A stretch of 64,000 nt of DNA, from NCBI RefSeq assembly GCF_011039075.1, contig NZ_JAAKEG010000007.1:1-64000 (forward strand), in the 5' to 3' direction. The DNA is from Adlercreutzia sp. ZJ304. Its GTDB lineage: Bacteria > Actinomycetota > Coriobacteriia > Coriobacteriales > Eggerthellaceae. Position 1 is the first letter of the stretch, and the number at the start of each line of letters is the position of its first letter. Positions 35,947 through 41,285 of the stretch are shown in pieces. Below the pieces are notes generated by a model. That model had not been told where the DNA came from and ran no database searches. It saw only the letters and a list, made by a program, of their open reading frames with translations. The position numbers and the translations under genes are program-made.

Positions 35947-36080
35947 AAACCGCCTCCCCAGCATGTCGAACCGAATTCAGTAAGAGTGTATATCCTTTTT
36001 GACTGATTATGCGCGAGCATTGGTATACTCGGCACATATAAGTCGCGTGATGCGACACACACGATTAACCGGAGGGAATG

Positions 36081-37775
36081 ATGGAAGGCTTCGAATTGAT
36101 ATCGACCGGCGCATGGTCGATAATTCCACCGCTTCTGGCGTTGGGATTGGCGCTTATCACGAAGGAAGTGTATTCATCGCTTACCGTGGGCGTCTTTGTG
36201 GGAATGATCATCTACCAGTTCACCCTGAATGGGGCAGGCGGTGAACAGCTTATCGCATCGTTTACCATGGTGCCGCAGATGATGGCTGAGCAAATTGCCG
36301 GCAATGGAGCGCTGTTGCTGTTCCTTGCCTTGCTGGGAGCGCTAACGGTAGTCATAGCCGTATCTGGCGGCTCCCGCGCCTATGCCGAATGGGTTTCGCA
36401 GCACATCAAAAATGCACGTATGGCATCTATTCTTACGGCGATATTGGGCATCATTATTTTCGTTGACGACTATTTCAACTGCCTAACTGTGGGTGCCGTT
36501 ATGCGCCCCGTCACCGACCGTTTCCGTATCAGCCATGAGAAACTTGCGTGGATTATTGACTCCACAGCAGCTCCGGTTTGCATTATTGCGCCGGTATCCT
36601 CGTGGGCAGTAGCAGTGGGTGGATATTTGGGCGAAGGCGGATTTAACACTTTCGTTGCGTCTATTCCCTACAACCTTTACGCGCTGCTAACTATATTCTT
36701 TGTTTTCTTCATGCTTGCCATCAATGCCGATTTCGGTCCGATGCGCGCAGCAGAAGCAGCAGCAAGATGCAACGAAACGCCCGCAGAAGATGCCATCGAG
36801 CAAAGAAAGCTAGAGGCGGCTGCTAAAAAGCAAGCCAACTTACTTAAAGTTGCTGCCGGCAACAAGATTCCAAGCGACGATTGCGCAAATCCGAATTTGC
36901 CGCCTAAGGTAACAGAGCGCGCCGATATAGAAGACGCAGCGCATGGCGCAATTGAACAATACAAAGGTCTTAGCATATCGGAAAAGGGTAAAGTTTCCGA
37001 CTTAGTTCTTCCAATTATCGTGCTTATTATCTTCTCAATTCTAGGAATGCTTTACTGTGGCGGTTTCTTCGAAGGGGTAGACTTCGCTACAGCGGTTGGC
37101 GAAAACCCTGTTATGGGTTTATGTATCGGTGTCTGTGTGGCATTGGTATTTGCAGCCGCAATGTTCTTACCGCGCAAACTAACAACGCTTGGTGGCTTCA
37201 TGGATGCTATGTCGGAAGGCGTGCGCTCTATGGTAGGTGCCATTATGATATTAGTTTTAGCGTGGTCGCTTGGTGGAGTGTGCCGTTACTTGTTGGGTAC
37301 TGGCGAATTTGTTTCCAGCTTCTTAAACAATATGGGAGTAGGGCTTGACTTACTACCAGCAATCATATTTGTTGTTGCAGCATTTATCGGTTTTGCAATG
37401 GGAACATCTTGGGGCACGGTAGCTCTTATCCTACCTATAGTTATAGGTGTGTTCGACGCATCCGATCCGCTATTCTTGGTGGCAGTAGGTGCTACGCTTG
37501 CGGGCGCTGTTTATGGCGACCATATCTCGCCTATCTCCGATACAACCATTCTGTCTTCGGCAGGTGCACAGTGTAACCACCTGCGCCATGTAGCAACACA
37601 GATTCCTTACGCAACTACAGTTATGGTTATTTGCTTTATTGGATATATAGTTGCCGGATTCACCAAAAACCCATGGATATCACTTGGTCTAGGTGCAGTT
37701 CTGGTAGTTATAGCAGTTCTTGTGCTTCATAAAATAAGCGAACGTAAAGCACAGGCAGAGCAAGCAGCGGAATAA
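36081..37775 (+). CDS. NhaC-family Na+/H+ antiporter-like protein
   Basis: About 564 residues and 11-12 membrane helices. Features: GAWSIIPPLLALGLALITKEVY, SSLTVGVFVGMI, TAILGIIIFVDDYFNCLTVGAVMRPV, STAAPVCIIAPVSSWAVAVGG, FIGFAMGTSWGTVALILPI and YGDHISPISDTTILSSAGA, all NhaC family hallmarks. A charged cytoplasmic loop of about 90 residues (alanine- and glutamate-rich) lies between helices. Likely exchanges Na+ for H+, though NhaC relatives also move organic acids. The second of two ATGs (36078, 36081) has better spacing from GGAGG. A clear terminator follows. Confidence 0.92.
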   Translation: MEGFELISTGAWSIIPPLLALGLALITKEVYSSLTVGVFVGMIIYQFTLNGAGGEQLIASFTMVPQMMAEQIAGNGALLLFLALLGALTVVIAVSGGSRAYAEWVSQHIKNARMASILTAILGIIIFVDDYFNCLTVGAVMRPVTDRFRISHEKLAWIIDSTAAPVCIIAPVSSWAVAVGGYLGEGGFNTFVASIPYNLYALLTIFFVFFMLAINADFGPMRAAEAAARCNETPAEDAIEQRKLEAAAKKQANLLKVAAGNKIPSDDCANPNLPPKVTERADIEDAAHGAIEQYKGLSISEKGKVSDLVLPIIVLIIFSILGMLYCGGFFEGVDFATAVGENPVMGLCIGVCVALVFAAAMFLPRKLTTLGGFMDAMSEGVRSMVGAIMILVLAWSLGGVCRYLLGTGEFVSSFLNNMGVGLDLLPAIIFVVAAFIGFAMGTSWGTVALILPIVIGVFDASDPLFLVAVGATLAGAVYGDHISPISDTTILSSAGAQCNHLRHVATQIPYATTVMVICFIGYIVAGFTKNPWISLGLGAVLVVIAVLVLHKISERKAQAEQAAE

Positions 37776-38010: not shown

Positions 38011-38493
38011 TTGTTTTTAAAAGCATCCATAGACTACGGATTAAGAATGCTTCTCTACCTTGCCAAGCATGATCGGGTCTGCTCTTCCAAAGAGATATCT
38101 GAAAATATGCTTATTCCGCGCGACTATCTAATTCAACTGGCTCAAATAGAGCGCCACGCTGGGCTAATAGAGTCGCGCCCCGGAAAAAATGGCGGTTATA
38201 TTATTTCTAAACCCGCAAACGAAATAACTCTGCTTGAAATTCTTAATGCTATAAATAATGGCGAAGACGAAATGGAAGAACCAAAACACGATATTGCAAG
38301 TGCGCGCCACACTAACGACGAAGTGACGCATATGCTAGATATTGTGACAAGCAGCTATGCAGCATTCCTAGACAGCATCACGCTAGACATGCTATCGAAA
38401 TGCTTCGATGGAACAGTAAATGCCGAAGTATATTTGGCAGATCGCTTAAAAGAGGAAAGCCAGCGTCTTACGCAAAACCTAGCAACTGCATAA
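38011..38493 (+). CDS. Rrf2-family transcriptional regulator
   Basis: About 160 residues. The N-terminal DYGLRMLLYLAKHDRVCSSK, ISENMLIPRDYLIQLAQIER and HAGLIESRPGKNGGYIISK form the Rrf2 winged helix, with the typical GGYxLxK wing (GGYIISKPANEITLLEIL). The iron-sulfur cysteine trio of IscR/NsrR is absent; only one Cys is in the N-terminal domain, so it is probably not cluster-bound. It uses a TTG start with GGGG upstream. It overlaps the NRMT-like gene's 3' end by 26 bp, convergent. The target is unknown; the neighbouring metal carrier is a guess. Confidence 0.88.
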   Translation: MFLKASIDYGLRMLLYLAKHDRVCSSKEISENMLIPRDYLIQLAQIERHAGLIESRPGKNGGYIISKPANEITLLEILNAINNGEDEMEEPKHDIASARHTNDEVTHMLDIVTSSYAAFLDSITLDMLSKCFDGTVNAEVYLADRLKEESQRLTQNLATA

Positions 38494-39706
38494 TAAATAA
38501 AGCTATGGTTAAAGCAGCCACCACAAAAACGGCAGCCCACAACAAAAGCTTTGCCACTTTTCCACTCTTGTAATTCCCCATAATGCGCTTGTCCGCCGAA
38601 ATTAGCGCCATAAACGCTAACAACACAGGCAAAATAACGCCGTTCACAAACTGAGCCGTTAACATCATGCCCATCAAATCCATATTAGGTATAAGCACGA
38701 CCGCTGCCGCAAGCAATACAACTCCGGTAAATATACCTTTAAATGCCGGTGCCTCGCGCCACTCATATGACACTCCGGCTTCCCAACCAAACGCCTCGCA
38801 AATTACGAATGCAGTAGTAAGTGGCAACACACATGCCGCCAAAAACGATGCAGCTACAAGCCCTATAGCAAACAGAGCCTGAGCATATTGACCTGCAAAT
38901 GGAGCTAGCGCCTGCGCAGCATCAGATGCGCTCTCTACAGCAATACCTTGTGGAAATAAAACAGCGCCCGTTGTAACTATGATAAACCAAGCTATAACGC
39001 ATGCCGCAATAGACCCAGAAACTGCATCCACTTTTTGCGAGAACAAATCTTCTGTAGCTAAACCTTTTTCCACCACATTACTCTGCGTAAAGAACATCAT
39101 CCACGGTGCTATGGTGGTGCCTATCATAGCTATAACCAATGACACAAATGCAGGCTGAGCGCTAAATGCTAGCAATACAGTAGAGCGTAGTGCCTCATTC
39201 CAATTAGGACCAGCCATAAACGCTGCCACAATATAAGTTATAAACACCAATGAAAGCACCAAGAAAACTCTTTGCACTCGCTTATACGACCCGCCAGCTA
39301 TAAGCACCCATACAGCCACAGCCGCCACAGGAACGCTAATATACTTCGATACACCAAACATTTCCATGCCCGACGCTATGCCAGCAAATTCCGAAAACGT
39401 AGTAGCAACATTGCCAATAAGCAGCGCACACATTGCTAGCGTGGTAAGTCTTATTCCGAAACGCTCGCGTATAAGCGCTGCGAATCCCTTACCAGTAACA
39501 GCACCCATTTTCGACGCGGTTATCTCTACAAGAATAAGCAGCAAGCACATAATTGGTATAACCCAAAGCGTGCCAAATCCAAACTGAGCACCAGCTGTAG
39601 AGTATGTAGAAATTCCACCGGCATCGTTTCCTGCCATGGCAGTAATAATGCCCGGACCCATGGCTGCAAGCACTAACAGTATTTTGCTGCGACGCTTTTC
39701 AGGCAC
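38468..39706 (-). CDS. NRAMP-related metal carrier, Mg2+-type (NRMT-like)
   Basis: About 412 residues and roughly 11 helices. In classical NRAMP Mn2+/Fe2+ carriers helix 1 reads DPGN and helix 6 reads MPH. Here helix 1 is GNDAGGIS (D28, A29, G30, G31) and helix 6 is TIAPWMMF (A200, P201, W202), so the metal-binding Met is replaced by Ala and the Asn by Gly. The same kind of change marks the NRMT group, of which the Eggerthella lenta protein was shown to carry Mg2+. Prediction: Mg2+ transport. It overlaps the PRC/MgtE_N/CBS gene by 8 bp, as expected for partner genes. Confidence 0.82.
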   Translation of the reverse strand: MPEKRRSKILLVLAAMGPGIITAMAGNDAGGISTYSTAGAQFGFGTLWVIPIMCLLLILVEITASKMGAVTGKGFAALIRERFGIRLTTLAMCALLIGNVATTFSEFAGIASGMEMFGVSKYISVPVAAVAVWVLIAGGSYKRVQRVFLVLSLVFITYIVAAFMAGPNWNEALRSTVLLAFSAQPAFVSLVIAMIGTTIAPWMMFFTQSNVVEKGLATEDLFSQKVDAVSGSIAACVIAWFIIVTTGAVLFPQGIAVESASDAAQALAPFAGQYAQALFAIGLVAASFLAACVLPLTTAFVICEAFGWEAGVSYEWREAPAFKGIFTGVVLLAAAVVLIPNMDLMGMMLTAQFVNGVILPVLLAFMALISADKRIMGNYKSGKVAKLLLWAAVFVVAALTIALFIMQLLGFA

Positions 39707-41060
39707 TTTGCAAACCTATCGTTTGAAATATCTGAATTAAGACTAGCGTATACAAAACCAAACCCAGAATGCCAGCAAGCACATATCCGCCTATGCGTAG
39801 AATATTGCGCTGCTTCTTTTCCGACACTCTATCTTCCTCTATGGCATCCCATGCATCTTCGGTGGTAACTATTCCAAGCATCGCACCGCGCTCGTCCACA
39901 ACAGGCATGGCGGGTATATCGTATTTAAAAATGTCGGCTACAACATCTTCTTCGGTTTCGTCGGGCGGCACACTTATAACATCTGTATACATTATGTTGG
40001 CAAGACGTGCATCGTCTGCAGACAATACAAGTGTACGCATAGACAGTACGCCTACCAGTTTTCCATAGTTATCGGTAACGTATACATAATGCACGGTGGG
40101 GAAATCTTCTGACAAATCGCGCAAAACACCTATTGTTTCACGGACGGTAGAATCGCTTTGCACAGCAACAAACTGGGTAGTCATCATGCCGCCAGCTGTG
40201 CCGTCCTTAAAGCCCAAAAGTCGCCGTATTTCATCGGCATCATCCATACCCATTAAGCGAAGCAGTGTTTCCGCTTTTTCATATGAAAGATCGCGCACAA
40301 TATCGGCAGCATCATCCGGATCCATGTTGCCTATCAGCCGAGCAGCCGTAGCATCGTCTAAGTCATCCAAGAATTCCGCTTGTACTTCATCTTCCATCTC
40401 TGATACAGCTTCGGTACGCGAAGATTCATCTAAGTGCTCAAACACAGCAGCGCGCTGCTGCGGATCAAGCTGCTCTAAAATGTCAGCCACATCCGCCGGA
40501 TGCAATTCGTCTAAGCGCCTATGAGTTACAGAAAGCTGCACTTCCGACAAGTCGCGATCTAGCAAATCCATATAATTCCAAGCAATTATCTGCTCGTCTA
40601 ACTTATGCCGAAATAGCTTTGATATTGCAACCGCAGCGCGTTCTAGCAAAGGATGCAGACCGCGCAATATGCCACGCGCGCCAACTTCCGCACCCAAAAG
40701 ACGCAGCTGCGTGCCCGAAGGAGACAACTTTAGGTCGTTCACGCGAACAACTTTCATGCCCTGCGTATCTACAATTTGCCTATTCATCAAATCGCGCGCT
40801 AAAAGCACTTCTGTAGGTTGTAGATAGCTAAATCGTATATCGGGCGACTCAACGGCTAGCGTAATACCGTCATCGTCAAACTTATCAACATACTTGCGCC
40901 AAGAGATCATAAACGGAACATTGCCCGGTCCCTTAAACGCCAAACTTGTTATTCGGGGAAACATTTCCCCAGTTGAAATAGCGAGATCGGAAACAACCCC
41001 GATCTTCTCTTTGCCGGAATCCACAACAGGCTTTCCCAGCATTCGAGATAAATATAGCAC
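39699..41060 (-). CDS. PRC-barrel / MgtE_N / CBS protein with C-terminal anchor
   Basis: About 453 residues. Two PRC-barrel-like regions at the N-terminus (GKPVVDSGKEKIGVVSDLAI and MKVVRVNDLKLSPSGTQLRLL), then an MgtE_N superhelix (RRLDELHPADVADILEQLDP, QQRAAVFEHLDESSRTEAVSEM), two CBS domains (about 290-345 and 355-410), and one C-terminal helix (ILGLVLYTLVLIQIFQ). It lacks the MgtE channel domain, so it cannot itself conduct Mg2+; it likely senses Mg2+ or nucleotides for the NRMT-like carrier. GTG start with AGGGGAAGG upstream. The leader contains a strong hairpin at 41089-41129. Confidence 0.88.
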   Translation of the reverse strand: MLYLSRMLGKPVVDSGKEKIGVVSDLAISTGEMFPRITSLAFKGPGNVPFMISWRKYVDKFDDDGITLAVESPDIRFSYLQPTEVLLARDLMNRQIVDTQGMKVVRVNDLKLSPSGTQLRLLGAEVGARGILRGLHPLLERAAVAISKLFRHKLDEQIIAWNYMDLLDRDLSEVQLSVTHRRLDELHPADVADILEQLDPQQRAAVFEHLDESSRTEAVSEMEDEVQAEFLDDLDDATAARLIGNMDPDDAADIVRDLSYEKAETLLRLMGMDDADEIRRLLGFKDGTAGGMMTTQFVAVQSDSTVRETIGVLRDLSEDFPTVHYVYVTDNYGKLVGVLSMRTLVLSADDARLANIMYTDVISVPPDETEEDVVADIFKYDIPAMPVVDERGAMLGIVTTEDAWDAIEEDRVSEKKQRNILRIGGYVLAGILGLVLYTLVLIQIFQTIGLQSA

Positions 41061-41197: not shown

Positions 41198-41285
41198 TGG
41201 CGGAGGAAGTAGGATTCGAACCCACGGTACCTCTCGGCACAACAGTTTTCAAGACTGCCGCCTTCAACCACTCGGCCATTCCTCC
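41198..41285 (-). tRNA. tRNA-Ser (UGA)
   Basis: 88 nt on the minus strand. The acceptor stem GGAGGAA/TTCCTCC, discriminator G, encoded CCA, D-arm GGCCGAGTGGTTGAAGG, anticodon loop CTTGAAA with anticodon TGA, long variable arm TTGTGCCGAGAGGTACCG and T-arm GGTTCGAATCC are all visible. This is a class II serine tRNA. Confidence 0.97.

Follow-up and report, generated by a model that had tools for sequence, protein, structure and literature searches.

Layout of the locus

The studied stretch comprises 64,000 nucleotides of Adlercreutzia sp. ZJ304 (GCF_011039075.1, NZ_JAAKEG010000007.1, positions 1-64,000) and is referred to as the window. The subject of this analysis is a pair of overlapping minus-strand genes in the window, coding for an NRAMP-related Mg2+ transporter (NRMT, gene nrmT) and for a partner protein related to the cytosolic part of the Mg2+ channel MgtE. 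The three features that define the locus are as follows.

38468..39706, minus strand: nrmT, NRAMP-related Mg2+ transporter, 412 amino acids, GTG start (Pfam Nramp 3.6e-79; phmmer 1e-202 to EleNRMT 7qia)
39699..41060, minus strand: partner with the order PRC, MgtE_N, CBS, CBS, one transmembrane (TM) helix, 453 amino acids, GTG start (Pfam; phmmer; AlphaFold2 and Foldseek)
39699..39706, no strand assigned: overlap of partner and nrmT, 8 nucleotides, GTGCCTGA, with the partner stop within the nrmT start (sequence)

An overlapping gene pair at 38468-41060 had been described in an earlier reading made from the sequence alone (the sequence-only reading), and both open reading frames were found there. 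The partner gene comes first on the minus strand and nrmT second, the nrmT start being located inside the partner stop region, and this arrangement suggests that translation of the two genes may be coupled. A purine-rich stretch, AGGGGAAGG, is located immediately 5' of the partner GTG, and a tRNA-Ser gene (41198-41285) upstream of the partner leaves about 140 bases between the two.

The carrier

Comparison with the Pfam profile PF01566 indicated that the carrier is a full-length SLC11/Nramp protein (profile positions 1-356 of 357, E-value 3.6e-79). Its closest solved relative is EleNRMT (PDB 7qia), with a phmmer E-value of 1e-202 over aligned residues 2-410 and 78% identity in 410 columns. NRMTs are defined by the ion-site residues DxxG (helix 1) and TxxA/T (helix 6); in EleNRMT the histidine pair of helix 6b is replaced by W and N, the proton path is lost, and the protein carries Mg2+ and Mn2+, not Ca2+, without H+ coupling (PMC8806188). 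The corresponding motifs of the window carrier are these.

39614..39625, minus strand: helix-1 ion-site motif DAGG, residues 28-31, replacing DPGN (sequence; DxxG is the NRMT signature, PMC8806188)
39107..39118, minus strand: helix-6 ion-site motif TTIA, residues 197-200, followed by PW at 201-202, replacing AxxMPH (sequence; TxxA/T is the NRMT signature, PMC8806188)

Helix 1 of the window carrier thus has the sequence NDAGG (D28) and helix 6 the sequence TTIAPW (T197, A200, W202), and W202 and the next Asn align with the W and N of EleNRMT at the positions of the classical NRAMP histidine pair. D28, G30 and G31 were invariant among 17 Coriobacteriia NRMTs. The exchanges of DPGN for DAGG and of MPH for APW had already been pointed out in the sequence-only reading, and its assignment of the carrier to the Mg2+ NRMT group of Eggerthella lenta was strongly supported by the alignment to EleNRMT, in which the motifs are intact. 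On this alignment the identity of the window carrier as an NRMT orthologous to EleNRMT is near certain, and Mg2+ transport by it would be expected by analogy with so close an orthologue.

The partner protein

The domains of the partner, and the residues in them that correspond to Mg2+ sites of the Thermus thermophilus MgtE (TtMgtE), were located as follows.

40863..41060, minus strand: PRC-barrel, residues 1-66 (Pfam PF05239 2.5e-10, two stretches; more beta structure to about residue 125 in the AlphaFold2 model)
40203..40505, minus strand: MgtE_N, residues 186-286, with E217, D249 and D253 equivalent to TtMgtE E59 (Mg7), D91 (Mg4) and D95 (Mg6) (Pfam 4.3e-27; alignment mapping)
39831..40184, minus strand: CBS pair, about residues 293-410, with D381, D402 and D405 equivalent to TtMgtE D226 (Mg5), D247 (Mg4) and D250 (Mg5) (Pfam CBS 5.2e-16; alignment mapping)
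39723..39791, minus strand: single TM helix, about residues 424-446 (hydropathy 427-445; AlphaFold2 helix 400-452; five helices here in relatives)

Residues 171-414 of the partner aligned with residues 15-257 of TtMgtE, which form its cytosolic part (phmmer 6e-35), and a Foldseek search with the AlphaFold2 model of the partner (mean predicted local distance difference test score, pLDDT, 86; predicted template modelling score 0.50) ranked MgtE cytosolic structures first, with an E-value of 4.6e-21. In this model helix 400-452 is continuous and passes from the plug-helix position straight into the membrane helix. The score against TIGR00400 was 170.6 bits, under the cut-off of 232.75, and the channel domain PF01769 gave no match in the window genome. 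An intact MgtE was considered as an identity for the partner and was ruled out, since the channel domain is missing and the pore residues are gone in its relatives.

Closure of the Thermus channel runs through the Mg2+ sites Mg2-Mg7 (PMC5882242). Alignment of the partners revealed that D91 and D247 are invariant in all 53 one-helix forms and that the remaining N/CBS site residues are acidic in 47-53 of them; over 55 partners, an uncorrected group, the mean acidic fraction was 0.97 at the six Mg2+-site positions vs 0.51 at 48 other acidic positions. The plug and CBS residues that serve the membrane domain of MgtE (E258, D259, D214, E216 and E255) were kept in 90/90 cases in the five-helix partners, while E258 and D214 were mostly lost in the one-helix partners, as expected because the channel helices are gone there. 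The Mg5 residue D226 is weaker in five-helix and soluble partners, often being Asn, and the Mg7 residue E59 is absent from part of the five-helix group. From the conserved site residues it is plausible that binding of Mg2+ closes the N/CBS clamp of the partner. The sensor role given to the partner in the sequence-only reading is likewise made plausible by its domain content and Mg2+-site residues, the sensing itself standing as a prediction.

Origin of the partner

Partners of Coriobacteriia outside the window family are 600-630 residues long with about five hydrophobic helices. The open reading frames of deep Coriobacteriia partners matched PF01769 over the cut-off, though weakly, and profile-profile comparison of their membrane domain with the TM domain of true MgtE gave a probability of 97.6% over 169 columns. 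The Coriobacteriales membrane domain matched the deep Coriobacteriia domain with 99.2%; its direct comparison with MgtE was not significant, so that its homology to MgtE is established through the intermediate deep Coriobacteriia set. A control comparison of NRMT with MgtE was not significant. The AlphaFold2 model of one five-helix partner (L172; mean pLDDT 78) was superimposed on the MgtE crystal structures 4u9l and 4u9n, its membrane domain giving Z-scores of 15.6 and 15.2 and root-mean-square deviations of 2.3 and 4.8 over 141 and 172 residues, respectively.

Neither the pore motif GGNxGxQ nor the TM5 Asp (D432 in Thermus) was kept in any of the 20 long partners checked, the former being typically R..ED.S and the latter mostly Met, while a comparison set of true MgtE sequences showed the TM5 Asp in 15/15 and GGN in 14/15 (one GGS). 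The five-helix partners have kept an MgtE-type fold and carry a conserved charged TM2 motif, R..E, of their own. The retained fold and this motif could be taken to mean that the partner itself conducts ions, the five-helix relatives being MgtE channels with an altered pore; given that the TM5 Asp and GGNxGxQ are gone in 20/20 and that the window partner has a single helix, we regard this as very improbable.

The N-CBS phylogenetic tree showed that the Coriobacteriia partners form one group (support 99). Nested among its five-helix forms are the window family with its one-helix form, another branch with one helix (L034/L135) and genus g89, whose partner has no helix. This nesting speaks for an ancestor with five helices that was shortened more than once within Coriobacteriia. 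These comparisons are best read as descent of the partner from a five-helix protein of MgtE type in which decay of the pore had come before the loss of helices, the window family keeping one helix. The earlier description of the partner as the Mg2+-sensing domains of MgtE with no channel and only one C-terminal helix agrees with Pfam, hydropathy and AlphaFold2 and holds for the window protein; what it had not recognized is that this state is a derived one, reached from a five-helix, pore-decayed ancestor.

Conservation of the pairing

A scan of 296 Coriobacteriia genomes, in which NRMT was counted at E < 1e-40 and the partner at E < 1e-80, found both proteins in 248, NRMT only in 2, the partner only in 5 and neither in 41 (Fisher p ~3e-42, ancestry uncorrected). 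Both NRMT-only cases are partial matches in fragmented assemblies. The partner was located upstream of NRMT in all 70 Coriobacteriia loci with enough flank and in 77/77 of a scan of named genomes, the two sets overlapping partly in species. The check on conserved pairing across Coriobacteriia that the sequence-only reading had called for thus came out in favour of it. Long frames near NRMT matches were also inspected, since a natural carrier-partner fusion would have proved contact, and this line was abandoned: no fusion occurred in the fetched Coriobacteriia and the Actinomycetota carried separate open reading frames.

These counts bear on whether the partner could be a relic that has no function, left from a lost MgtE and held in place by operon structure alone. 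The stepwise loss of membrane helices does resemble decay, and carriers function without the partner in published assays (PMC4072509). Against a relic, identity of the partner among the nearest Eggerthellaceae is 75-88%, a level close to that of the carrier, the partner is kept in 248 of the 250 genomes with the carrier, and its site residues are held while other acidic positions drift; we consider a relic improbable.

In a survey of Actinomycetota, Desulfobacterota and Chloroflexota loci, four of which were from outside Actinomycetota, a PRC-type partner accompanied 30/30 DAxG carriers with enough flank vs 2/10 DPxG carriers; in 5 of these 30 the companion was PRC-only. The PRC domain may be a docking part.

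Some further arrangements were observed in the survey. Two loci (L237, L238) have two companions, a long partner upstream of the carrier and, downstream of it, a PRC-only protein. Two carriers with DPAG in helix 1 (L249:4233-5123 and L250:2072-2989) have a shortened PRC/MgtE_N-like neighbour of about 300 residues, apparently without the full CBS pair. In two NRMT relatives (L233:2974-4218 and L246:2959-4221) the metal-binding Asp of helix 1 is lost (GNGASG and GIGASG, respectively) and the five-helix partner upstream is kept.

Links to Mg2+

M-box aptamers were identified directly upstream of the pair in three deep Coriobacteriia (L170, L172 and L180) with 125-130 bits. True MgtE was present in 13/46 Coriobacteriia genomes without NRMT vs 3/250 with NRMT. 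Within the window family, all 16 genomes without NRMT that were tested for CorA have CorA or MgtE, and neither was found in 16/60 genomes with NRMT. No CorA, MgtE or MgtA was found in the window genome (98% complete), which leaves NRMT as its only recognized Mg2+ importer; the pair may therefore be essential there.

In two species of genus g89 (G014, L188:3557-6981; G301, L228:1-2073) a partner-type sensor without a membrane helix is located 24-30 bases downstream of the P-type ATPase MgtA, which in G014 matches TIGR01524 over the cut-off; no NRMT was found in G014, the g89 species searched. Separately, two Coriobacteriia with a solitary long partner (G145 and G008) were observed to have MgtA elsewhere in the genome.

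These links also weigh on two other explanations. The first is that the module serves Mn2+ and that the partner senses Mn2+. EleNRMT also carries Mn2+, and the pair of Acidobacterium capsulatum rescued Mn2+ uptake and Mg2+ only weakly, its carrier being apparently Mn2+-preferring (PMC4072509); the M-box ahead of orthologous pairs, the sensor beside MgtA, the complementary distribution of the pair and MgtE, and the position of NRMT as the only recognized Mg2+ importer of the window genome all argue for Mg2+, so that a Mn2+ module appears unlikely. The second is that the partner acts outside transport regulation, as a Mg2+ chaperone, as a transcription or ribosome factor (RimM being another protein with a PRC domain), or in assembly of the carrier. 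Chaperone activity of the companion was raised as an alternative by Shin et al. (PMC4072509), soluble partners are found in Desulfobacterota, Chloroflexota and many Actinomycetota, and solitary long partners occur. Strict adjacency, loss together with NRMT, re-pairing with MgtA and the kept residues of MgtE closure by Mg2+ point to feedback on a transporter, and we hold a role outside transport regulation to be a minority prospect, though the most serious of the alternatives.

Proposed mechanism

The reading that we prefer, with moderate confidence, is that the partner, a pore-less MgtE remnant, senses cytosolic Mg2+ and acts on NRMT as its feedback subunit in a Mg2+ uptake module. NRMT would be a proton-independent SLC11-type carrier importing Mg2+ (and Mn2+), and the partner would have lost the pore, leaving one membrane helix, and kept the Mg2+-operated N/CBS clamp. 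High cytosolic Mg2+ would bridge the CBS pair and MgtE_N in the way known from MgtE, and the closed clamp would slow the adjacent carrier rather than plug a pore of its own; the helix would hold the clamp at the membrane, and the PRC domain might serve for docking. In this scheme we infer the contact between partner and carrier, the direction of regulation, the role of the PRC domain and transport by the window protein.

Several observations weigh against it. The nrmT genes of Clostridium, including that of Clostridium acetobutylicum, function without a companion, and co-expression of the A. capsulatum partner gave no better Mg2+ rescue (PMC4072509), while EleNRMT transports alone in proteoliposomes (PMC8806188). 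No M-box riboswitch was detected at gathering threshold in the whole 64-kb window. PRC-only companions of about 200 residues, without MgtE_N or CBS, stand by the Actinomycetota NRMTs L231, L234, L235, L241 and L243. A long-type partner occurs without NRMT in the genome in four Coriobacteriia, namely L189 (G199), L190 (G270), L191 (G145) and L192 (G008), and no transporter was found beside it in the three of these genomes in which the neighbours were readable. As to A. capsulatum, the test asked whether rescue at low Mg2+ improved, and it used a pair that apparently prefers Mn2+; a brake would not show there.

More tentatively, a pore-dead channel may have become a transferable regulatory subunit that gates unrelated folds, in most lineages NRMT (SLC11) and in a single genus MgtA, the channel helices having been lost several times independently; we put this at somewhat less than an even chance. 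If true, such a case would illustrate how a channel can come to regulate transporters to which it is not related. For the MgtE-like companion of NrmT, descent from a decayed MgtE that kept its Mg2+-site residues predicts a brake for a carrier without a built-in sensor. This suggests that structural and transport work on NRMT was possibly done without its regulatory subunit.

Neighbouring genes

An open reading frame judged by eye to code for an Rrf2-like regulator (38011-38493) is convergent with nrmT, and the last 26 bases of nrmT lie within the overlap of the two. Upstream of it, on the plus strand, lies a gene for a 565-residue membrane protein (36078-37775), by eye similar to NhaC-type Na+/H+ antiporters.

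Comparison with known systems

Most nrmT genes adjoin a homologue of the MgtE N-terminal cytoplasmic domain and are often controlled by an M-box, and feedback regulation was proposed for them (Shin et al. 2014, PLoS Genet, PMC4072509). The pairing itself is thus not new, having been known since 2014, and the sequence-only reading erred in taking a two-protein Mg2+ carrier with a separate sensor to be new, as both the pairing and the feedback idea are in that paper. On a PRC/CBS partner of a Mg2+ transporter nothing beyond Shin 2014 was found in the open-licence literature, which is weak evidence of absence. As far as we found, there is no earlier description of the partner as derived from a pore-dead MgtE, of the steps by which it was shortened, or of its new association with MgtA.

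The window pair is the same pair as those of Shin 2014, with a homologue of the MgtE cytoplasmic domain adjacent to the carrier gene (8-nucleotide overlap, phmmer 6e-35). Their companion was described as a homologue of the MgtE N-terminal domain only, whereas the window partner adds an N-terminal PRC barrel and one helix; the MgtE-fold membrane domain with lost pore found in its relatives is absent from that description. The M-box was reported for many, not all, of those pairs and is not required for membership, and the window pair is without one.

EleNRMT (Ramanadane et al. 2022, eLife, PMC8806188; 7qia) shares with the window carrier the DxxG/TxxA sites, W and N for the histidine pair and 78% identity. 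It was characterized on its own; in a term search of the main text of that paper no companion gene came up.

In genus g89 (G014 and G301) the gene for the same sensor immediately follows that of an MgtA-type P-type ATPase (TIGR01524), likewise an importer of Mg2+. This arrangement differs in that no NRMT was detected in G014, the sensor has no membrane helix and the transporter is unrelated to NRMT.

The MgtE channel (Thermus thermophilus; TIGR00400; PF03448, PF01769) shares with the window partner the N domain, the CBS pair and the residues of Mg4, Mg5, Mg6 and Mg7, and with the five-helix relatives of the partner also the plug-helix residues and the TM fold. The window partner differs from it in having no PF01769 domain, the pore Asp being lost in all relatives checked, and in having a PRC barrel and being paired to a separate carrier.

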